From contig NZ_JRGL01000128.1 of the NCBI RefSeq assembly GCF_000764655.1, forward strand, positions 1-64,000: DNA of 64,000 nucleotides, written 5' to 3'. The stretch comes from Aeromonas aquatica (GTDB lineage: Bacteria; Pseudomonadota; Gammaproteobacteria; Enterobacterales; Aeromonadaceae). Each line of letters opens with the position of its first letter. Position 1 is the first letter of the stretch. Below, piece by piece: positions 38,067 through 47,462 of the stretch. Both the position numbers and the translations under genes were made by a program. The notes under the pieces are model-generated. The model ran no database searches. It saw only the letters and a program-made list of their open reading frames with translations, and was not told where the DNA came from.

Positions 38067-38549
38067 TCATTCGATCATGGCTGGCTGCGCGAGGTTGTCG
38101 GCACGCCACAGACGATAGCGCACTTCATACTCTTGCGGCACATAGATGACGAACGGCAGTTTGGAGTTGTAGTTCACGAAGAAGCCCTGGCCATAGATCT
38201 GGACGAAGGTATCCTTCTTCTGGCCATCCGGGCAGGCCATCAGGGTACTGACGGGGCCGGAGACCTGGCCCAGGGTCAGGTAGTTGTAGCCCCAGCCCTT
38301 GACGCTGTGCTGTTCCAGGTTGCCGGCGAAGCGCGGCAGGTTGCAGTCGACCAGCATCTTCTTGCCGACCTGCAGTTCGACCATCATGTCGGCTTCATTC
38401 TCGACTTCCGGCAGACGGATCACGACACGTTCCTGGTTCACTTCGGCGGCGGGGAACATGCTGATATCAAATTTTTTCGGTTCGGCGGCGAAGGCATGGC
38501 CACCCAATAACAAGGCGCCCAGCAGGCTAAAACGCAATACGGTTTTCAT
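38067..38549 (-). CDS. eco: Ecotin, periplasmic serine protease inhibitor
   Basis: 160 residues from the ATG at 38549, with GAGG upstream. The signal peptide (MKTVLRFSLLGALLLGGHAFA) is followed by the ecotin core: VDCNLPRFAGNLEQHSVKGWGYNYL, and the reactive loop VSTLMACPDGQKK keeps the P1 Met, as in E. coli (STMMACPDG). The disulfide cysteines are present. It inhibits trypsin-like and elastase-like proteases, protecting the periplasm. It lies near the protease operon but in a separate unit. Confidence 0.95.
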   Translation of the reverse strand: MKTVLRFSLLGALLLGGHAFAAEPKKFDISMFPAAEVNQERVVIRLPEVENEADMMVELQVGKKMLVDCNLPRFAGNLEQHSVKGWGYNYLTLGQVSGPVSTLMACPDGQKKDTFVQIYGQGFFVNYNSKLPFVIYVPQEYEVRYRLWRADNLAQPAMIE

Positions 38550-38729
38550 CTGTACCTCATGGGATTGCTTCAACGCCGCTAGACTAACCGCTCTGCCGTT
38601 TTCATGCCAGCGCTGCGGGGCGCAAAACCTGCCGTTACCGGCACACAATGACGTAATTTGATGCTTTTTTGACGGCTTGCCTCACAAACAGGCAACAGGG
38701 TAGGGGTCATGAGACCCCCACCCAGGCCA

Positions 38730-39287
38730 TCAACGCACCAACAACACCTGCTTGGCCCAGGCGCTGGGGGCCCGCAGGCCGACGGAGCCACTGGTGATGT
38801 CGAGATAGGCCACCGTCTTGCCCGCCGGGAAGGGGGTGGCGGACCAGAGATAGACGTAGCCGTCATTCACCTCTTTCCCGTCACCGGCCATGGCGCGGGG
38901 GAAGATGGTCTCGTTCAATGCCGGCTTGTAGCAGGCGGACTCCAGTATGCTGGTCAGCTCCTTGATGGTGGGCAGGCGCCAGTCCTGGTGGCCACCGAAG
39001 CCATGGAGGGCGTGATTGGGTTCGGTGCGGATCCGCTCGGCGGTCAGCAGCGCCTGCTGCCAGTAGAGCCGGGTAGGCTCGCCGCGACAGCTGTCATTTT
39101 GCCAGGTTTGCCCCAGCTGGCAGCGCATCCAGGTGAGGCCGGAGGCCCGGTCGGTCACGGTGCCGTTACCGTGATCGAGGAAGCGGGAGCTGGGGCTGGT
39201 TCTGGGCATGTTGTCGTCGCAGATGGCGATGGCCAGTGCCAGCGGGCTGCACAGACCGAGCAGCAGGGTCAGGAGAAACTTGTTCAT
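38730..39287 (-). CDS. Secreted DUF1566 (Lcl-type) protein
   Basis: 185 residues with a signal peptide (MNKFLLTLLLGLCSPLALA). DUF1566/Lcl features: RFLDHGNGTVTDRASGLTWMRC, DWRLPTIKELTSILE, and YLWSATPFP with a final SVGLRAP strand. Cysteines suggest a periplasmic or surface location. Its ATG overlaps the stop of the upstream DUF1566 lipoprotein (ATGA). It is the last gene in the Fur-preceded set. Lcl domains occur in surface adhesins; role here unknown. Confidence 0.88.
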   Translation of the reverse strand: MNKFLLTLLLGLCSPLALAIAICDDNMPRTSPSSRFLDHGNGTVTDRASGLTWMRCQLGQTWQNDSCRGEPTRLYWQQALLTAERIRTEPNHALHGFGGHQDWRLPTIKELTSILESACYKPALNETIFPRAMAGDGKEVNDGYVYLWSATPFPAGKTVAYLDITSGSVGLRAPSAWAKQVLLVR

Positions 39288-40654
39288 CGGGTTACCTCGG
39301 CCACCAGGCGCAGTTGCAGGGCATTGGTGTCGTCAGGGGTTTGTACGGGGGTCGGGTAATCGGTGCCGGCATCCTCACCCCAGAAGAGCGGGGCAATGAC
39401 GCTGAGCGGTGCGCTCTCGAGGCGACGGGACGGGGTCAGGGTCTGACTCCAGTAATAGCCATCGAAGCCATTGAACCCGGTGCCCAGATCGGGGAAGTAG
39501 CGCACATCCAGGGTCGCTATCTGACCATCCTGCTGACTGAGGGAGCCAAAATGCTGCAGGCTCATCAGCTCCTGGGCCTCGGGCAGGCGCCAGTGCGCGA
39601 TGCCGCACAGCTGCTGGCTGTTGAGCCACTGACGGTATTGCTCCGTGGTGCAGATGGCCTCGCCGTTCGGGCAGGCGTAATCCAGCTCCTCCTGCAAGGG
39701 ATGGTAGTTGCCAAATTCCCAGGCGAAGGCCCGGTGCAGATCCCGCGGGCTGTCCGGATCATCCAGCTTCTTCTCCCAGACGAGACCCGTATTGAGATCC
39801 TCCACGCAGTCCCACAGAGTTGCGCTGTCCGGCAGCGGCTGCCCCTGGTTGTCGAGCTTGCGATAGCGCAAGGGGGACTGCTTGAGGCTGGCGTCCTGGC
39901 CCGGATGATCCGCGGGCTCGCTGGTCAGCAGGTAGTCCACCCCGTCGCTGTAAGTGGTGACACCGCTGGCGGTGATCAGGGCTCTTGGCTGCTGCTGCAG
40001 CAAGACGGCACTGAGTCTGGCCTGCAGGCTCTGCAGCTCGGGGCTGTTGGCAAAGTGCTGGCCGAGCTCGGGCAGCAGGGTGACCAGCCCCTGCCAGATC
40101 TGACGTCGGCGCTCATCGGCAGAGAGCCCCGGCAAGGTGCCGGCGTCACCGAGGGCGGCCAGCGCCAGCTCGGAGAGGGCCTGGTTGAAGGCGGTCAGCT
40201 GAGCGAGGGCAGCGAGATCCTGGCCAGGCTGGAGCGGGGCCAGAGCCAGCAGCAGCTCGGCCAGTGCCTGGGCTGGGGGGATACCGTCGCCGATGCGGGT
40301 CTGCAACAGGCTGCTCAAGAGGGTGGGGGTGAGCTGTTGTCCATCCAGACGCGCCGCCGGGTGGGTCAGGGTCAGGGCGGCCGGATCGCGTGGGATGAAC
40401 AGCAAGGGGCTGGTCAGCAAGGTGGGGGAGGTGCCGCTCAGCTGACGGGCACCGGCGGCGCCACTGACTTCGGGTTCGCCGGCATCGCAGCGATCGTTCT
40501 GGTTGAGGTTGACGCACAGGGTGCCCGCCTGGGGCAGCTCAACCGTCAGGCGATAATCCGGCGCCGCCAGCGGCGCCTCATCCGTGCTGCCACCACCACA
40601 GGCGGTGAGCAGGGGGGCCAGCAAACAGGCCAGCGGGGTCATTCTCATCTTCAT
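39284..40654 (-). CDS. DUF1566 (Lcl-type) lipoprotein
   Basis: 456 residues with a lipobox (LLAPLLTAC-GGGS). A Leu/Ala-rich middle leads to a C-terminal DUF1566 domain: LWDCVEDLNTGLVWEKKLD, CGIAHWRLPEAQELMSL and GYYWSQTLTP. An early segment CVNLNQNDRCDAGEP resembles a short surface-protein (calcium- or EF-like) loop. It is probably outer-membrane anchored. It overlaps the next gene (ATGA), and a hairpin lies between it and the metallopeptidase gene. Confidence 0.88.
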   Translation of the reverse strand: MKMRMTPLACLLAPLLTACGGGSTDEAPLAAPDYRLTVELPQAGTLCVNLNQNDRCDAGEPEVSGAAGARQLSGTSPTLLTSPLLFIPRDPAALTLTHPAARLDGQQLTPTLLSSLLQTRIGDGIPPAQALAELLLALAPLQPGQDLAALAQLTAFNQALSELALAALGDAGTLPGLSADERRRQIWQGLVTLLPELGQHFANSPELQSLQARLSAVLLQQQPRALITASGVTTYSDGVDYLLTSEPADHPGQDASLKQSPLRYRKLDNQGQPLPDSATLWDCVEDLNTGLVWEKKLDDPDSPRDLHRAFAWEFGNYHPLQEELDYACPNGEAICTTEQYRQWLNSQQLCGIAHWRLPEAQELMSLQHFGSLSQQDGQIATLDVRYFPDLGTGFNGFDGYYWSQTLTPSRRLESAPLSVIAPLFWGEDAGTDYPTPVQTPDDTNALQLRLVAEVTR

Positions 40655-40666
40655 TTATTGTCCTTG

Positions 40667-40685
40667 GAGGGGCCCTGGGCCCCTC
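40667..40685 (-). repeat. Intercistronic hairpin, metallopeptidase to lipoprotein
   Basis: GAGGGGCC/GGCCCCTC stem (40667-40674 with 40678-40685) with a CTG loop, just before the lipoprotein ribosome site. No T run on the coding strand, so it is probably not a full terminator. Confidence 0.55.
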
Positions 40686-40721
40686 GCTGTTTTTTAGCCA
40701 TTAATAATGTCGAGGGGCGTC

Positions 40722-43136
40722 TCAGCCGCGGCGACTGACACGGCGCCAGAGGGCGAGCGGCAACAACCAGAGCAGATTGAGGCTGCCGCCACCGCTGCTG
40801 TCCGCGGTGTCGAAGTGGATGATGCCGTCATCCGGCAGCACTATGGGCTCGCCACACTGGGCGCCGGTGCGCTGGCTGATGCTCCAGCCATTGAGGCGAC
40901 CCTGCTTGCCGGGGGCGTTGTCCACCACTTCCAGGGTCCATTGGCCGGCCAGCGGCTCGCCGATGAACTGACTCAGGGGTTGCAAGGATTGCAGCTCGGT
41001 CGGGAAGACACCCTTGAGGCGCGGCAGCGGGCTGTAGCCCTTGTCCCAGATCTGGACCCGGGTGCCGGAGGGGGAGTTGAGCCAGATCTCCAGCTCGTCC
41101 AGCGCCTCGTGTTGCAAGTCCAGGCTCAGCTGCAGTTGGTCGCTCACCCGGGTCTGGGTCTTCTCCAGCAGCAGGCTGGCCTGGCTCAACCCTTTCTCCT
41201 CCGCGCTCTGCGCATCCTTGAGGGTCAGGGCCTGGCCGTTGGCCCGGCTGATGACGGGGGTACCGATGGGCAGGCTCAGGGGCTGTTGCCATTGGCGCTC
41301 GCTCGGGCTGGCACCGGTCAGGGTCAGGTTGACGGGCAGGGCGGCCACGTCGCCGCAGGCGAGGGGGCTCTGGGCCAGCAGTCGCAGGGTGGTGCTCATG
41401 CTGGCGCCCGCCGCCAGGGTGCTGGCCTGCCACTGATAGGGGTCGACTTGCAGGCCGGTCGGCAGGGTCAGGGTCAGATCGTGCAGGGTCACCGCCGTGT
41501 TGCCCGGGTTGCTCAGGGTGAGCACCACGGACTGGCGTTGACCCAGCTCGATGGCGCTGCCATCGGCCAGGGCCAGGTTGACCGGGGCCTGCAGCAGGCC
41601 GTGCTGACGAAATGCCTGCTCCAGGTGGCGGCCATAATGGCGCGCCGGGTAGAGCCGCTCGGCGGTGTCCACCGTGAGGCGGGCCAGCTGCGGCATGCGG
41701 ATGGCCGGGCCCAGACCGAAGTGGGACTCGATGATCAGGCGATCGAACTCGTCCCGCGCCACCTCACCGTACTCGGCGACCGAGGCCAGCAGGGCCTGGA
41801 ACAGCGGCGTGCCCCACAGCTGATCCCCGTTGCTGCCGTTGATGGTTCTGTGGGCCGGGTAGTTGTAGTCCGGGTGGTAGCGGGCGCGCAGATCGTCCAG
41901 CTGACGCGGGGCCCGGTCGGTGAAGCGGGCATCCCAGTTGAACACCAGGGCCGGCTCGAAGTTGCGACCGGCCTCGCTGCGCTGGCGGTGGCTGGCGGCG
42001 AGATAGTCGCTGAAGCCCTCGCCGATGGCGCCCCAGTCCGCCTCGTCACCGAGATCCGGCACTATGTGGTGCTGCACCGCGTGGCCGAACTCGTGCCAGA
42101 TGACCATGGGATCCTCGGCATCGGGCACGCCGCTGCGGCCCAGCTCCAGCCTGCGCTCGAAGGGGTCATAGAGGGAGTTGTCCTGATAACCCGCATCGGT
42201 GTCGATGTCGAGGGCGCCGGGGATGAGGTCGGTGAAACCGAGCGCCTTGAGGTGCCGCTGGGCAAGATCCAGGTGGTAGTAGGCATTGATGTCGGCAAAG
42301 CCGGCATCGTCTCGGATCAGGCGAAATGCCTGGGGGTTGTCGGTGCTGTAGGGGGCCGTGGCGGGCTCCATGGCATCCACCACCCGGGCATTGGGGCCGC
42401 TCAGCACATAGTCACTGCCTCGCAGGCTGACCGGCAGGGCCACATTGTCCTGATAGGCTGCCTCTGCCAGCACCAGGGATTCGTGCCAGACCAGGCTGGC
42501 ATCCTGCAACTGGGTGCGGGGATCCGGGTCAAACACCCGGGCCAGTACGGACTGATCCCCCGCATCCGGGGTGAAGGGTGCCGCCGTGGTGGCGGCGTCC
42601 ATCCAGCGGCCGAGCTCCTGGCTGCCGTCACAGCTGGCAAACAGCTGCTGGTAGGCGGCCTTGGCGTTGCCGTCCTTGTGCTCGCGCACCCGCAGGCGCA
42701 GGGCCGGCACCAGGGTGTCGCCGTCGCGCCAGTACCAGGCCTCGACCGGCCCCAGCGTATCTACCTCGGCACCCGCATCACGCAGGCTGGTGAGCAGGGG
42801 ATCCAGGCTGGTGGCGGGGTCGCAGACGGGCTCGGTGCTCTGCAGCGGACGCAGGTTGTGATAGAGGCGCCAGGGCTTGCCGGTCGGATCGATGCTGACG
42901 GCGGCCTGGGTGGTGGCCACCGGCAGGCCGTTGACCAATTGATGGAAGCTATGGTGGTGGCCGAGCAGGCTGACCCTGTCGTAGTCGGGGACGAGGGTCA
43001 CGCCGAGGCGGCTCTCCAGCCAGGCTTGGGGCGTGGTGGTGAGCGGCGGTGCATCGACATACAGCAGCTCGGCGGCCTGCAGAGGCTGAGCGAGCAGGGT
43101 CGCCGTCAGCCAGAGGGCCAGGGATGAGGGTTTCAT
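40722..43136 (-). CDS. Secreted HEFGH metallopeptidase with P-domain and GlyGly-CTERM tail
   Basis: 804 residues from the ATG at 43136, with GGAG upstream and a typical signal peptide (MKPSSLALWLTATLLAQPLQA). An FTP-like N-terminal region (VSIDPTGKPWRLYHNL) precedes zinc motif WHEFGHAVQHH (about residue 348) and GEGFSDYLAAS with a further Glu, then a Leu-rich beta region and a P/proprotein-convertase-like domain (LEIWLNSPSGTRVQIWD, about 680-770). The final 25 residues SSGGGSLNLLWLLPLALWRRVSRR are a GlyGly-CTERM signal for rhombosortase. It is probably surface-displayed. A longer start at 43172 overlaps the upstream stop. Confidence 0.85.
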   Translation of the reverse strand: MKPSSLALWLTATLLAQPLQAAELLYVDAPPLTTTPQAWLESRLGVTLVPDYDRVSLLGHHHSFHQLVNGLPVATTQAAVSIDPTGKPWRLYHNLRPLQSTEPVCDPATSLDPLLTSLRDAGAEVDTLGPVEAWYWRDGDTLVPALRLRVREHKDGNAKAAYQQLFASCDGSQELGRWMDAATTAAPFTPDAGDQSVLARVFDPDPRTQLQDASLVWHESLVLAEAAYQDNVALPVSLRGSDYVLSGPNARVVDAMEPATAPYSTDNPQAFRLIRDDAGFADINAYYHLDLAQRHLKALGFTDLIPGALDIDTDAGYQDNSLYDPFERRLELGRSGVPDAEDPMVIWHEFGHAVQHHIVPDLGDEADWGAIGEGFSDYLAASHRQRSEAGRNFEPALVFNWDARFTDRAPRQLDDLRARYHPDYNYPAHRTINGSNGDQLWGTPLFQALLASVAEYGEVARDEFDRLIIESHFGLGPAIRMPQLARLTVDTAERLYPARHYGRHLEQAFRQHGLLQAPVNLALADGSAIELGQRQSVVLTLSNPGNTAVTLHDLTLTLPTGLQVDPYQWQASTLAAGASMSTTLRLLAQSPLACGDVAALPVNLTLTGASPSERQWQQPLSLPIGTPVISRANGQALTLKDAQSAEEKGLSQASLLLEKTQTRVSDQLQLSLDLQHEALDELEIWLNSPSGTRVQIWDKGYSPLPRLKGVFPTELQSLQPLSQFIGEPLAGQWTLEVVDNAPGKQGRLNGWSISQRTGAQCGEPIVLPDDGIIHFDTADSSGGGSLNLLWLLPLALWRRVSRRG

Positions 43137-43171
43137 AGGTGACTCCAAAGCAGAAAAGATGAGGCGTGGCA

Positions 43172-45211
43172 TCAGTGGTTCACCCCGGCGAGGGTGAGCA
43201 GGAAGGCATACTCCTGGGCCGCGCGCAGCTGCGCCGTACGGGGGTTGGCGAGGTGGCCGCCATCGAGCTCGGTCCTGAGCAGATAAGGGCCCTTGCCTGT
43301 GCTGTGGGCCCGCAGGCGGGCTATCCACTTGAGCGGCTCCCAGTAGGGGACCTGACTGTCATGGAGCCCTGCCGTCACATAAAGTGGCGGGTAGGGGGCA
43401 GCGTGCAGATTGTCATAGGGGCTGAGTCGGCGCATGGCAGCATAATCGGCGGCGTTCGCCGGGTTGCCCCACTCCGCATACTCCTGGCGGGTGAGCGGCA
43501 GCTCGGGATCCATCATGGTGCCGAGCATGTCGACGAAGGGCACCTGCAGCACGGCGCCGGCGAAACGGGTCGGCGCCTGATTGAGGGCCGCCGCCACCAG
43601 CAGACCGCCAGCGCTGCCGCCCATGGCAAACAACCGGGCGGGATCGATGGCGGGATCCCGGGCGAGGCTGTCTGCCACCGCCAGGAAGTCGTCCACGCTG
43701 TGCTGCTTCTGCTGGCCACGGCCATCCAGATACCAGGCCTCCCCCAGCATGCCGCCGCCGCGCACATGGGCGATGGCGTAGACGAAGCCGCGATCCAGCA
43801 GGCTCAGCACCTGGGACTGGTAGTAGGGGCGCATGGGGGTGCCGTAGGCACCATAGCCATAGAGCAGCAGCGCCTTGGGTTGGCTGATGTCCTTGCGCCA
43901 GACCAGGGAGACCGGCACCCTGACCCCATCCTTGCTCTGCACCCAGCGCCGCTCACTCTGATAGGGAGAGGCCTGGGTCGGCTTGTCGCCAGTCAGCCAG
44001 GCGCCCGAGTCCAGATCCAGCCAGCGCTGGTGCGGGGCCTCGGCCATGCCCTGACGGCGAATGAGGACCCGCTCGCTCGCAGGATCCTGGGCGCCCTGGA
44101 TCCAGGCCGTGCCGGCTCCTTCGGTGAGCGGCAGGCTGTGGGTCAGCTTGCCGTCGGCGTCCAGCACGTCGAGCCAGTCGTCCCCGTCTTTGCGGTATTG
44201 CAGCACGGTATGGGCGGCAAACAGGCGCCACTTCTCGAGGCTGCGATCCTGCCCGGACCAGAGCGGTCGCCAGGGTTTGCTACCTACCTCGGCCAGGCTG
44301 GCTGCCTGGTAGAGGCCGAGCTCCCCATCCCGATTGCTCTTGATGAGCACCCGCTCGGCCAGGGTGTCCAGGTAGTATTCGACCCCGGGCTGGCGCGCCT
44401 TGACAAGGGCCGCCTTGCCGCCGTCCAGCAGGTATTGTTCCGAGCTGTCGTGGTTGTTGCTCTGCAGGATCAGGTGGCGCTTGTCCGTGGTGCGATAGAG
44501 ACTGAGTAGCCAGGCGGCGTCCGCCTCTTGATGCACCATGGTTTCTTTGCCGTCTCGCCAGGCCCAGAGTTGCCAGGGGCGCAGGGTGTTGCGCTCGTTG
44601 GCGACCGTGTAGAGGGTCTTGCCATCCAGGCTCCAGAGCAGATCGCTGGTTCTGTGGGGCAGGGTGGCCAGGGTCTCGCCGCTTGCCAAGTCCAGCAAGG
44701 TGATGCGGTAGTCTCTATCGCCTCGGCTGTCTTCGGCCAGGGCCAGCCAGCGCCCGTTCGGGTGCAGGGACCAGGCGGCGAGCTCGTAGTAGCCGTCGGC
44801 TGGCTGACGCGGTGCCAGCCGTTGGCGGGGCTCCGCCTGCTCATCGTTGCGTTGCCACAGGCTGCCATCGGCACTCATGCGCCACTGGCTGCCGGCCTGG
44901 CTCAGCCACTCGACGGGCATGGGCTCGCCCCGCTCCCGGTGCTGCCACTCGGTTTGCAGCTTGGCTGCGAGAGGCTTCTGGCCAGCGAGCTGTTGCTCGG
45001 TCCAGCGGTTCTGCTCGCGCAGCAGCGTCAGCAACTCGTGAGAGTTGCGGCTGTCATCGCGCCAGCCGCCATAGGCGTCGAAGCGGGCTATCTCTCCCTT
45101 GTGCAGTTGTGGACGCTCGGGGATGAGGGGCGCCGCGGCTTGGGTCACTTCATGGACAGAGGCGGGCGCCGGGGTGGCCAGCAGGCTGGCCAGGATCAAA
45201 AGAGCGTGCAT
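43172..45211 (-). CDS. Secreted S9 family peptidase, oligopeptidase B-like
   Basis: 679 residues with a signal-like N-terminus (MHALLILASLLATPAPA). An N-terminal beta-propeller is followed by an alpha/beta hydrolase domain: LLYGYGAYG, GGSAGGLLVAA (catalytic Ser about residue 532), and TELDGGHL with the catalytic His near 651. It resembles oligopeptidase B (PtrB), cleaving peptides after basic residues, but is exported. Start and stop both share bases with the neighbours (TGATG), so it is translationally coupled within the operon. Confidence 0.88.
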   Translation of the reverse strand: MHALLILASLLATPAPASVHEVTQAAAPLIPERPQLHKGEIARFDAYGGWRDDSRNSHELLTLLREQNRWTEQQLAGQKPLAAKLQTEWQHRERGEPMPVEWLSQAGSQWRMSADGSLWQRNDEQAEPRQRLAPRQPADGYYELAAWSLHPNGRWLALAEDSRGDRDYRITLLDLASGETLATLPHRTSDLLWSLDGKTLYTVANERNTLRPWQLWAWRDGKETMVHQEADAAWLLSLYRTTDKRHLILQSNNHDSSEQYLLDGGKAALVKARQPGVEYYLDTLAERVLIKSNRDGELGLYQAASLAEVGSKPWRPLWSGQDRSLEKWRLFAAHTVLQYRKDGDDWLDVLDADGKLTHSLPLTEGAGTAWIQGAQDPASERVLIRRQGMAEAPHQRWLDLDSGAWLTGDKPTQASPYQSERRWVQSKDGVRVPVSLVWRKDISQPKALLLYGYGAYGTPMRPYYQSQVLSLLDRGFVYAIAHVRGGGMLGEAWYLDGRGQQKQHSVDDFLAVADSLARDPAIDPARLFAMGGSAGGLLVAAALNQAPTRFAGAVLQVPFVDMLGTMMDPELPLTRQEYAEWGNPANAADYAAMRRLSPYDNLHAAPYPPLYVTAGLHDSQVPYWEPLKWIARLRAHSTGKGPYLLRTELDGGHLANPRTAQLRAAQEYAFLLTLAGVNH

Positions 45212-47376
45212 CAGATCCCCACGAAGGTGTAGCGCAGGCTGGCACTCAGGGTGCGACCGCTTTGGGTGAAGAGGGAGGCATCGGTACCGGCTTCCAGCCC
45301 GGCCACATCCTGATAGCGGGTGTAGCGGGTGTCGAACAGGTTATCGAGCTTGAGGTTGACCTTGAGGGCATCGGTGACCAGCCAGTCGGCGGTCATACCT
45401 AAGCTGAACCAGCCGGCGCTCTTGAGGCAGTCGTCCTGGCTGCTGGTCAGGCTGTTGCCACAGGTGGGCACCCGGTTCATGGCGGCGGCGTAATCCGCCT
45501 GCAGCCCCAGGCTCCAGTCGTTGGCCTGATAGCTCAGGCGGGTGTTGCCCTCCAGCGGGGTGAGGGTACGCAGCGCCTCGCCCTGACTGTCTTGCCCGTC
45601 GACCCAGCCGAGCTTGGTGGCGACTTCCCATTCCTGGGTCAGCCAGTAGCTGGCGGCGACTTCCGCTCCCCAGGTTTCGGCCTTGGCCACGTTGCGGTAC
45701 TGGCGCAGTATGACCCCGTCGCGCAGGCGCAACCCCACCTCACGCCAATCGATGAAGTTGTAGTAGCGGTTGTAGAACAGGGCCGGTTTGATGCTCCAGT
45801 TCTGTCCCTCACCACTCAATCCCCACTCGAAACTGTGGCTGGTCTCCTCCTGCAGCTCGGTGTTGGCGATGATCTCGAACGGCGGCAGGGCGAAGTAGTG
45901 GGGTATGTTGCCGTACACCTTGTCATAGGAGGGGGCGCGGAAGCCGTTGGCGTAGCTCAGCCAACTGCGCCACTCCTCGTTGAAGCGATAGCTGGTGGCC
46001 AGGCTCGGGGAGATGTGCCAGCTGTGGTTCTCGCCGTTGCTGCCATCGAGCGGCTGCAGCCATTGGTGATCCATGCGCAGGGTGGGGGTGAATTGCCACT
46101 GGCCCAGGGTTGCCACGTCGCTCAGCCAGACGCCGGCCCTGTCGGTGCGGGCCCGGCTGAAGGGGGCAGACTGCTGGGGTTGCGGCACGCCGGCCTCCAG
46201 GCTCAGCTTCTCCACCGGTCGCTCGTGGTTGGTGCGCTCCAGCTCCAGGCCGTAGCTCAGCTTGTGGGCGATGTCACCCGTGGTCAGATCACGGCGCACA
46301 TCCAGCTCGGTGCCGACCCTGTCTTCGGTGAAGGTGGCGAGCTCGCGCTCGCTGCGATAGCGGGGATAGCCGCTCAGCAGATCGTTTTGCAGCAGGCTGC
46401 GCTTGTTGGCGGTGTTTTTGGCGTGATTGCCGTAGGCACTCCAGGTGAAGCTGTCGGCCAGCAGGGTATCGAGGCTGCGGGCCTCCCAGCTCAGCTTGCC
46501 GCCCTGGGTCTTCTGGGAGGCGTCTTCGCGGTACTGGCGCACCTGCCACTTGCCGTCGGGCTGGGGCACCTCGCGGGGTCCCTGATCCCGCTGGGCGTTG
46601 TCCTCGAAGTAATCGAGCTCGAGGCGCAGCAGGTGGTGATCGCTCAGATCGAAGCGGGAGCTGGTGGAGGCGCTCAGGCCGTCCAGATCCGCCGGGATGC
46701 GACTCTCGTCATAGTTGGCGGTCTCGTGCCCCTGCCAGCCGGAGAGGCGCAGCAGGTGCTCGGTATCCCATACCCGGGCGGCGCCGGTGGCGCTCAGCTT
46801 CTGCTTGTCGCTGCTGCCATCCTGCAACACCTTGCTGCTCAGATAGGCATCCTGACCCTGCAGGTAGTCTTCCGGTTGCTTGGTGCTGATGACGATGGTG
46901 CCGCCGATGGCATCGGAGCCATGGAGGGAGGAGCCGGCGCCCTTGGCGACTTCGATCTGCTTGACGTCGTCCAGGTCGAAGCTGAAGCGGCCCACCTTGT
47001 CGTTGAGGTCGTCAGCGCCGAAGCCGTCGCTGACCCGAACCCCGTCCTTGATGATCAACACCCGGTTGCCGCCCATGCCGCGAATGATGATGTTCTGCGG
47101 CCGGCCGGCGGAGCCGGTCACCGAGACGCCGGGCTCATTCTTGAACACGTCGGTGAGTTCGGTGGCGACCTGGCGATCCAGATCCTCCTCGGTGATGACG
47201 GTGATGGAGCCCGACACGTCGGACAATTTCTGCTCTATGCGCTGGCCCTTGACCACTATGGTCTCGCGCGCCTTGAGCTCGGGGTTCATCTCGGTTGAGT
47301 CGATCCTGGCCGGATCGCTGGCGGCCAAGGCTGTACCGGACAGCAGCATGGGCCAGTAGTGCAGTAGTCTTTTCAT
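45211..47376 (-). CDS. TonB-dependent haem/haemoprotein-type receptor
   Basis: 721 residues with a signal peptide, a TonB box region, a plug domain (TVITEEDLDRQVATELTDVFKNEPGV, NIIIRGMGGNRVLIIKDGVR) and a 22-strand barrel ending in aromatic RYTFVG. NGFRAPSYDKVYG (FRAP box near residue 478) and a His in NIPHYFALPP are like haem receptors HutA/HemR; the usual NPNL is replaced by NTEL. It probably imports haem from haemoproteins; the ligand is inference. Two Fur-box-like sequences precede it. Confidence 0.85.
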   Translation of the reverse strand: MKRLLHYWPMLLSGTALAASDPARIDSTEMNPELKARETIVVKGQRIEQKLSDVSGSITVITEEDLDRQVATELTDVFKNEPGVSVTGSAGRPQNIIIRGMGGNRVLIIKDGVRVSDGFGADDLNDKVGRFSFDLDDVKQIEVAKGAGSSLHGSDAIGGTIVISTKQPEDYLQGQDAYLSSKVLQDGSSDKQKLSATGAARVWDTEHLLRLSGWQGHETANYDESRIPADLDGLSASTSSRFDLSDHHLLRLELDYFEDNAQRDQGPREVPQPDGKWQVRQYREDASQKTQGGKLSWEARSLDTLLADSFTWSAYGNHAKNTANKRSLLQNDLLSGYPRYRSERELATFTEDRVGTELDVRRDLTTGDIAHKLSYGLELERTNHERPVEKLSLEAGVPQPQQSAPFSRARTDRAGVWLSDVATLGQWQFTPTLRMDHQWLQPLDGSNGENHSWHISPSLATSYRFNEEWRSWLSYANGFRAPSYDKVYGNIPHYFALPPFEIIANTELQEETSHSFEWGLSGEGQNWSIKPALFYNRYYNFIDWREVGLRLRDGVILRQYRNVAKAETWGAEVAASYWLTQEWEVATKLGWVDGQDSQGEALRTLTPLEGNTRLSYQANDWSLGLQADYAAAMNRVPTCGNSLTSSQDDCLKSAGWFSLGMTADWLVTDALKVNLKLDNLFDTRYTRYQDVAGLEAGTDASLFTQSGRTLSASLRYTFVGI

Positions 47377-47379
47377 TGT

Positions 47380-47394
47380 TGATAATGATTATTA
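47380..47394 (-). promoter_or_regulatory. Fur-box-like sequence, proximal
   Basis: TGATAATGATTATTA fits the 7-1-7 Fur consensus except for one base in the second half. It lies 3 bases upstream of the receptor ATG. Confidence 0.7.
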
Positions 47395-47447
47395 TTTAAG
47401 CCTGAAGGGCGCGGATTATTACAGATGAATCCTTTTGGTTCAATGAC

Positions 47448-47462
47448 TGATAATCATTATCA
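47448..47462 (-). promoter_or_regulatory. Fur-box-like sequence, distal
   Basis: TGATAATCATTATCA is a perfect 7-1-7 Fur inverted repeat, about 70 bases upstream of the receptor start and likely covering its promoter. Confidence 0.85.

Follow-up and report, generated by a model that had tools for sequence, protein, structure and literature searches.

Why are a haem receptor, two peptidases and two DUF1566 proteins encoded one after another behind Fur-like boxes? This question is raised by a 64,000-nucleotide window of Aeromonas aquatica (contig NZ_JRGL01000128.1, positions 1 to 64,000), in which five same-strand open reading frames (ORFs) lie on the minus strand within 38730-47462. The first-pass annotation of this DNA proposed an iron-starvation operon in which surface proteolysis of haemoproteins is coupled to haem uptake, and it knew of no described system of this make-up. 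The latter claim was wrong. A five-gene operon, ptrB-hvtA-VV21550-VV21551-VV21552, is in print for Vibrio vulnificus, with its last three genes left as hypothetical (PMC6813434; reports are cited here by their PMC numbers). The Aeromonas block is a real, conserved member of this known haem operon family and not a new system. It probably represents the HutR/HvtA accessory haem-uptake operon in Aeromonas and includes a surface protease/adhesin module that acts as proposed below. New are the sequence-based assignment of the three hypothetical genes, one to a putative M36-like metallopeptidase that has a P-domain and a GlyGly-CTERM tail (in V. cholerae probably VCA0065) and the other two to DUF1566 proteins; an operon core that lacks the S9 peptidase; and the link to VCA0065.

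The gene block and its counterparts in Vibrio

The gene types first proposed were borne out by the ORFs, by Pfam and NCBIfam profiles and by motifs. The first gene (45211-47376, minus strand) encodes a TonB-dependent haem receptor of the HutR/HvtA type (P0001, 721 amino acids). This protein scores above the cut-offs of TIGR01785 and TIGR01786 (347.3 bits versus 316.85 for TIGR01785, haem/haemoglobin receptor), its nearest solved chain is the haem/haemoglobin receptor PhuR (E 4.5e-43), and it carries a FRAP box, the conserved His and a degenerate NPNL box (FRAPSYDKVYGNIPHYFALPPFEIIANTEL). The second gene (43172-45211, minus strand) encodes an exported S9 peptidase of the PtrB type, a relative of oligopeptidase B (P0002, 679 amino acids; Peptidase_S9 206.5 bits; signal peptide recognized by eye). 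Motifs and domain profiles identify the third product (40722-43136, minus strand; 804 amino acids from the ATG at 43136, with an alternative ATG at 43172) as an M36-like zinc metallopeptidase with an FTP-like propeptide, a P-domain and a GlyGly-CTERM tail. The last two genes encode DUF1566 (Lcl_C) proteins, a lipoprotein with a lipobox (39284-40654, minus strand; P0004, 456 amino acids; Lcl_C 46.7 bits) and a small secreted protein (38730-39287, minus strand; P0005, 185 amino acids; Lcl_C 89.6 bits; signal peptide by eye), both above the PF07603 cut-off of 34.9 bits.

By gene content and predicted regulatory site, the Aeromonas block corresponds to the V. vulnificus ptrB-hvtA operon. Both comprise five co-directional genes, namely an S9 type II protease, a haem receptor and three more, with a Fur site before the first gene, and HvtA likewise harbors FRAP and NPNL boxes and the conserved His. 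VV21550-VV21552 are matched to the metallopeptidase and DUF1566 genes by the gene order in relatives that have the same Fur site. In V. vulnificus the five genes form one transcript, as assessed by reverse transcription PCR; hvtA is induced by iron limitation, this response is lost in a fur mutant, and HvtA is a haemin receptor (PMC6813434), albeit a minor one (PMC8706444). The single transcript, Fur/iron control and haemin uptake are thus taken from the V. vulnificus work, and gene content, linkage, tree groupings, Fur-like boxes and domains were read from the sequences. Iron control and haem uptake in the Aeromonas block are well supported by this homology. The view of the block as an iron-starvation operon coupled to haem uptake is therefore upheld by its conserved linkage and its V. 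vulnificus counterpart.

The two Fur-like boxes that had been noticed before the receptor gene stood up to scrutiny. Box 2 (TGATAATNATTATCA, 47448-47462) is a perfect 7-1-7 match to the consensus, and box 1 (47380-47394) is a 7-1-7 match with one mismatch. Only 0.03 such matches are expected in the window, and none of 100 shuffles contained two. Both boxes were aligned over 24 Aeromonas loci; this and all other 24-locus comparisons exclude G024, in which the set is split over two contig ends. In the alignment, the boxes flank a conserved promoter-like element, TTGAAC-17-AATAAT with a TG before the second hexamer (47415-47443, minus strand), of which the -10 region is conserved over the 24 loci. 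The number of such patterns is no evidence by itself, as 2 sites were found versus 1.6 expected. Within 200 bases upstream of the 24 loci, the best match to the Fur consensus reaches 13-17 of 19 positions and was equalled by at most 1 of 100 shuffles. A Fur box upstream of the first gene, as in HutR/HvtA operons, was hence found as a predicted site by sequence match. Outside Aeromonas, 13 operons were scanned for the Fur site printed in the V. vulnificus study. Three of them (L100, L120 and V. campbellii L185) are preceded by an exact copy of its first 16 bases and six further ones by a copy that agrees at 14-15 of these bases, in total 9 of 13. By sequence match, this recurring site ties the published V. 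vulnificus operon to the loci studied here.

The counterpart in V. cholerae is probably ptrB-hutR, which we take to be VCA0063-VCA0064. It shares the haem receptor with an upstream PtrB. The authors of the V. vulnificus study also liken ptrB-hvtA to the hutR operon of V. cholerae (PMC6813434), and the low-iron transcripts of this species include ptrB (PMC4324432). VCA0065, a putative Zn-metalloprotease with GlyGly-CTERM, was detected in the V. cholerae supernatant (PMC6219818, PMC13393428), and its level was 5.4-fold lower without rhombosortase in a 2018 study (PMC6219818). It is probably the counterpart of the operon metallopeptidase. A literature search, mostly outside subscription journals, returned nothing that joins VCA0065 or DUF1566 with HutR/HvtA. 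The word heme is absent from both GlyGly-CTERM texts (PMC6219818, PMC13393428), as are the terms hutR and operon from the latter, and the excerpts of the main text of five Aeromonas iron-limitation and secretome studies do not name these genes (PMC9503180, PMC4035829, PMC5987420, PMC4516982, PMC3852671).

Distribution and phylogeny of the operon

Conserved co-occurrence of the genes had been suggested as a check on the operon, and it was found in 25 of 37 Aeromonas genomes and, as full set or core, in 11 other genomes of the order and four named records. The order-wide sample comprised 394 genomes, in which the best 2 candidates per genome were scored for the metallopeptidase and the best 4 for the lipoprotein. 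Among these candidates, a metallopeptidase match at E 1e-15 or better was present in 37 genomes, 15 of Aeromonas and 22 others, and 25 stretches were fetched from the latter. Eleven of these 22 harbor the set at 28-47% identity: nine show the order S9-receptor-metallopeptidase-lipoprotein-DUF1566, and two (G130, G145) show receptor-metallopeptidase-lipoprotein-DUF1566 at a contig end. The remaining 11 contain metallopeptidase relatives without the receptor set. Linkage of metallopeptidase and receptor spans five family codes of the sample, and the receptors of Aeromonas and of the Vibrio-type loci are about 36-39% identical. All five genes are also present in the records of Vibrio campbellii and Vibrio sp. 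THAF190c, and four, without S9, in those of Pseudoalteromonas sp. NC201 and P. piscicida 2515. Because four of the 15 non-Aeromonas holders (11 sample genomes and 4 named records) show no operon S9 gene, the receptor, the metallopeptidase and the two DUF1566 proteins form the constant core. In G130 and G145, both of them fragmented assemblies, the S9 proteins that match best fall among ordinary oligopeptidase B. One of the nine S9-containing operons, that of G037 (L100 5109-14844), has a stop inside the S9 frame, a lipoprotein in two ORFs and a transposase-like ORF, recognized by eye, before the DUF1566 gene. In both Pseudoalteromonas loci (L187, L188), a second, divergent TonB receptor (30% identity, other strand) and an ORF of 1307 amino acids lie upstream of the four-gene set.

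The stand-alone relatives raise the possibility, well short of a probability, that the metallopeptidase and the DUF1566 proteins are part of an iron-starvation secretome that serves to colonise or to feed on protein, and have no more than Fur control in common with the receptor. The 11 of 22 genomes with such relatives are in line with this, and so are the binding of host glycosaminoglycans by DUF1566 of Lcl (PMC11162425) and the reported RpoH regulation of VCA0065 (PMC6219818). However, the cassette metallopeptidases form a group of their own: a branch with 100/100 support parts 17 cassette rows (5 of 24 Aeromonas loci and 12 of 15 other loci) from nine stand-alone rows (of 14 stretches), with HExxH present in all 26. 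The lipoprotein also argues against mere co-regulation. Among the best 4 candidates per genome, it matched at E 1e-12 in 67 of the 394 genomes, but with at least 118 bits in exactly 26, the same 26 that have a linked metallopeptidase. The next matches, of at most 92 bits, cover the C-terminal DUF1566 part, except one N-terminal piece of the G145 lipoprotein itself. The high-scoring lipoprotein is thus confined to genomes with the receptor set, a tighter link than shared regulation would require.

The trees of the other two proteins gave similar groupings. In the S9 tree, a branch with 99/98 support parts 17 operon rows (8 of 24 Aeromonas loci and all nine other operon loci of the sample; L179 was left out) from 19 others (OpdB, POP). 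Independent recruitment of S9 was rejected, as the operon S9 proteins group together. In the receptor tree, 19 operon rows (8 of 24 Aeromonas loci and all 11 others) are parted from eight paralogues at 100/100. Some rows are partial (S9 of L100, receptors of L102 and L103), and for L103 the metallopeptidase row, too, is incomplete, with unread bases nearby. In these trees, made without V. vulnificus and V. cholerae sequences, receptor and S9 are placed with the operon genes of the Vibrio type and apart from paralogues.

Within Aeromonas, all five genes are present in 25 of the 37 genomes (G024 included) and none is intact in the other 12. Scars were found in two of these 12. In G013 (L057 7660-7821), all that remains between the two flanking genes is the final 54 codons of the gene for the small DUF1566 protein, and in G025 (L058 6101-7130), rated 80% complete, the receptor start stands beside the end of the DUF1566 gene. 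Five genomes (G026, G014, G020, G035 and G005; L051-L055 in this order) carry a divergent copy with a receptor that is 66-67% identical. This copy seems to be placed at another chromosomal site, since neither YejM nor ecotin is encoded in its fetched stretch; that of G014 ends at a contig end just past the cassette. In G021, a further divergent genome, ecotin still adjoins the cassette. Full sets, genomes without intact genes, scars and divergent copies together show that the five-gene block is inherited and lost as a unit. That the genes are chance neighbours without common function is extremely improbable, given this all-or-none presence and the recurrence of the set, with 28-47% identity and another order, in other families. 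In G008, one of the 25 genomes with the full set, the receptor gene (L043 9639-11802) is in two reading frames, by mutation or assembly error.

Predicted roles of the encoded proteins

The metallopeptidase contains the motif HEFGH...GEGFSD, followed by the P-domain and by a Gly-rich tail, a hydrophobic stretch and a basic end. An HExxH motif with a downstream GExxxD-type motif for the third ligand is the signature of M36-like gluzincins. The pair HEFGH and GEGFxD is invariant in all 14 aligned Aeromonas rows, which points to an M36-like gluzincin with a predicted zinc site. P_proprotein was detected in all 14 Aeromonas members, FTP in eight (weakly) and Peptidase_M36 in five (weakly, best E 0.1). 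Formal membership in Peptidase M36 (fungalysin) was rejected, as the gathering score of PF02128 was missed; four cassette relatives that were scanned reach at most 20.5 bits versus a cut-off of 23.3. One of four non-cassette relatives (L104) passes M36 with 34.6 bits and is also above the FTP cut-off. A tail of the GlyGly-CTERM type, with Gly/Ser-rich motif, hydrophobic stretch and basic end, was recognized by eye in 24 of 24 Aeromonas metallopeptidases; five GlyGly-CTERM proteins are listed for A. hydrophila ATCC 7966 (PMC3237569).

In the lipoprotein, Cys19 within the lipobox is invariant, and the small DUF1566 protein is weakly similar to the Leptospira surface adhesin Lsa25 (33.5 bits versus a cut-off of 260). 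Based on lipobox, signal peptides and GlyGly-CTERM, judged by eye, the metallopeptidase and both DUF1566 proteins are predicted to be located outside the cell. The DUF1566 domain of Legionella Lcl is C-type-lectin-like and is likewise part of a secreted surface protein, which binds glycosaminoglycans and, in contrast, is a collagen-like trimer (PMC11162425). Structure models of the metallopeptidase (mean pLDDT 58.8, most of the catalytic region below 50) and of the lipoprotein (50.5) are of low confidence, and neither can carry a claim on the fold. A PDB search with the metallopeptidase model returned mostly beta-sandwich matches at low TM-score plus furin chains and, at rank 19, a 175-residue vibriolysin chain that is the propeptide by its length. 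These matches agree weakly with the domain calls.

The S9 peptidase aligns to oligopeptidase B structures at E about 2e-105, and its catalytic triad Ser533, Asp618 and His653 is aligned in all 33 operon S9 rows. Naming it oligopeptidase B was rejected, as its best NCBIfam match, the equivalog NF007511, scores 380.6 bits versus a cut-off of 1313; its sequence places it in a related S9 subfamily. A pocket Glu sets the specificity of oligopeptidase B for basic residues. At the matching position, Glu is present in 15 of 15 oligopeptidase B rows; this putative specificity residue, Glu577 of the operon enzyme, is kept in 24 of 24 Aeromonas rows, whereas all nine operon rows from other families harbor a Gln. 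Because oligopeptidase B-type enzymes cut peptides and not whole proteins, trimming of peptides appears likelier for the S9 peptidase than attack on folded proteins.

This affects the proposal that haemoglobin is broken down by both proteases at the surface and that its haem then enters through the receptor. The receptor does belong to a haem/haemoglobin subfamily, and it is linked, in five family codes of the sample, to a protease for which secretion or surface binding is predicted. The S9 peptidase, however, resembles a peptide-cutting enzyme and is missing from the Pseudoalteromonas operons. Moreover, in a plate assay two V. vulnificus hupA mutants that keep hvtA grew on haemin but not on haemoglobin; each also lacks venB and one tonB gene, and no other ptrB-hvtA operon gene is listed as deleted (PMC6813434). 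Surface proteolysis of haemoglobin feeding the receptor is thus unsupported and appears quite unlikely. Proteolysis of haemoproteins other than haemoglobin is compatible with everything seen.

Use of haemin but not haemoglobin would be explained if the metallopeptidase made haem-carrying peptides, which the DUF1566 lipoprotein would pass on to the receptor and which would be trimmed in the periplasm by the exported S9 peptidase. This would also account for an exported oligopeptidase-like enzyme beside the receptor in Aeromonas, Vibrio and relatives. Such a route, with its putative periplasmic S9 peptidase, is nevertheless unlikely: the Pseudoalteromonas operons lack an S9 gene, and the S9 pocket residue differs between lineages.

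For the HutR/HvtA-type operon that we favor, the following course of events is proposed. When iron is plentiful, Fur on the two boxes flanking the promoter would shut it, and under iron starvation one message would be made. The receptor would move haem across the outer membrane with energy from TonB. The metallopeptidase would be exported and lose its propeptide, and processing of its GlyGly-CTERM tail by rhombosortase would then release it or attach it to the surface. Both DUF1566 proteins, the lipoprotein and the small one, would act at the surface with their C-type-lectin-like domain, anchoring cell or protease to a substrate rich in glycans or protein. The metallopeptidase would free haem or haem-bearing fragments from a source other than plain haemoglobin, and the S9 peptidase would trim the resulting peptides. 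Where each protein acts in Aeromonas, and how protease, adhesins and receptor share the work, is our inference.

A bolder version is fairly unlikely in its entirety: receptor, M36-like surface metallopeptidase and two lectin-like DUF1566 proteins would form an outer-membrane machine, to which VCA0065 belongs, that strips haem-bearing peptides from a bound non-haemoglobin haemoprotein and imports haem or haem-peptide, with trimming by exported S9 in most lineages. A TonB-dependent receptor, a surface lipoprotein and surface proteases are also combined in Porphyromonas, in HmuR/HmuY with gingipains and in RagA/RagB. This layout is the same, but the lipoproteins and proteases are unrelated, and gingipains are cysteine proteases coded elsewhere. 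The four-gene core links work on hutR/hvtA in V. vulnificus with the orphan rhombosortase substrate VCA0065. From this core, a surface metallopeptidase and two DUF1566 proteins are expected to work together with the haem receptor in Aeromonas, Vibrio, Pseudoalteromonas and relatives. Because the block is conserved in several families, three genes without assigned role become tied to haem uptake.

Several observations weigh against assigning the block to the HutR/HvtA operons with the proposed mechanism. The gene order differs, with the receptor first in Aeromonas and S9 first in V. vulnificus. The published Fur core is missing before four of the 13 non-Aeromonas operons, two of which show a different match to the consensus at 16 of 19 positions. 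In three of nine non-Aeromonas operons, 8-19 of 200 shuffles equalled the best Fur-consensus match. Long-branch warnings apply to the trees of receptor and S9 and composition warnings to all three trees; since sampling was partial and the root is not known, one origin of the operon members is favoured by the sequences but not proved. Because the pocket residue is Glu in Aeromonas and Gln in other families, the S9 peptidase need not cut alike everywhere, and its preferred peptides may differ between lineages. The position of VCA0065 directly after hutR (VCA0064) is presumed from the locus tags. In a 2026 study, VCA0065 was 2.5-fold lower without rhombosortase, which was not significant, and it was undetected in membranes (PMC13393428). 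Fur control alone does not explain its reported RpoH regulation (PMC6219818), and HvtA does not serve haemoglobin (PMC6813434).

Neighbouring sequences and gene junctions

The downstream neighbour of the block encodes the serine protease inhibitor ecotin (38067-38648, minus strand; Ecotin 159.6 bits). It was found in 37 of 37 Aeromonas genomes and was rejected as a part of the system, to which it probably does not belong, as it stays in all 12 cassette-free genomes. None of the five block proteins matched PADLOC defence profiles, one scan of viral contigs yielded no relative of the lipoprotein, and neither Rfam families at gathering cut-offs nor tRNA genes were detected within the window. Among plasmid records, the lipoprotein DNA was found in one and the receptor protein in five, all on replicons of 1.2-4.9 Mb. 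The PLSDB records NZ_AP026896.1 and NZ_CP050465.1 (4.9 Mb and 2.1 Mb) are labelled plasmid but are chromosome-like and almost unannotated.

Two of the three overlapping junctions first described are certain, namely receptor/S9 (1 base) and lipoprotein/small DUF1566 protein (4 bases). The third, between S9 and metallopeptidase, is undecided and depends on the start codon chosen: a 1-base overlap needs the ATG at 43172, whereas the ATG at 43136, which yields a clean signal peptide, would separate the two genes by 35 bases. Measured from the start that includes the signal peptide, this gap spans 26-40 bases in 23 of 24 Aeromonas loci, and one locus shows a 4-base overlap. In the divergent loci L053 and L055, the metallopeptidase frame extends back to an ATG that overlaps S9 by 4 bases.

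The gap between metallopeptidase and lipoprotein harbors an 8-bp stem-loop (40667-40685, minus strand) that is absent from the first-pass annotation and whose coding strand lacks a U-tract. At this place, 23 of 24 Aeromonas loci have a stem of 7-9 pairs, with another stem sequence in the five divergent copies, compared with 3-6 pairs for the best stem in the S9/metallopeptidase gap. In Vibrio-type loci, the gap between metallopeptidase and lipoprotein mostly spans few bases. The Aeromonas stem-loop may set the ratio of the message parts.

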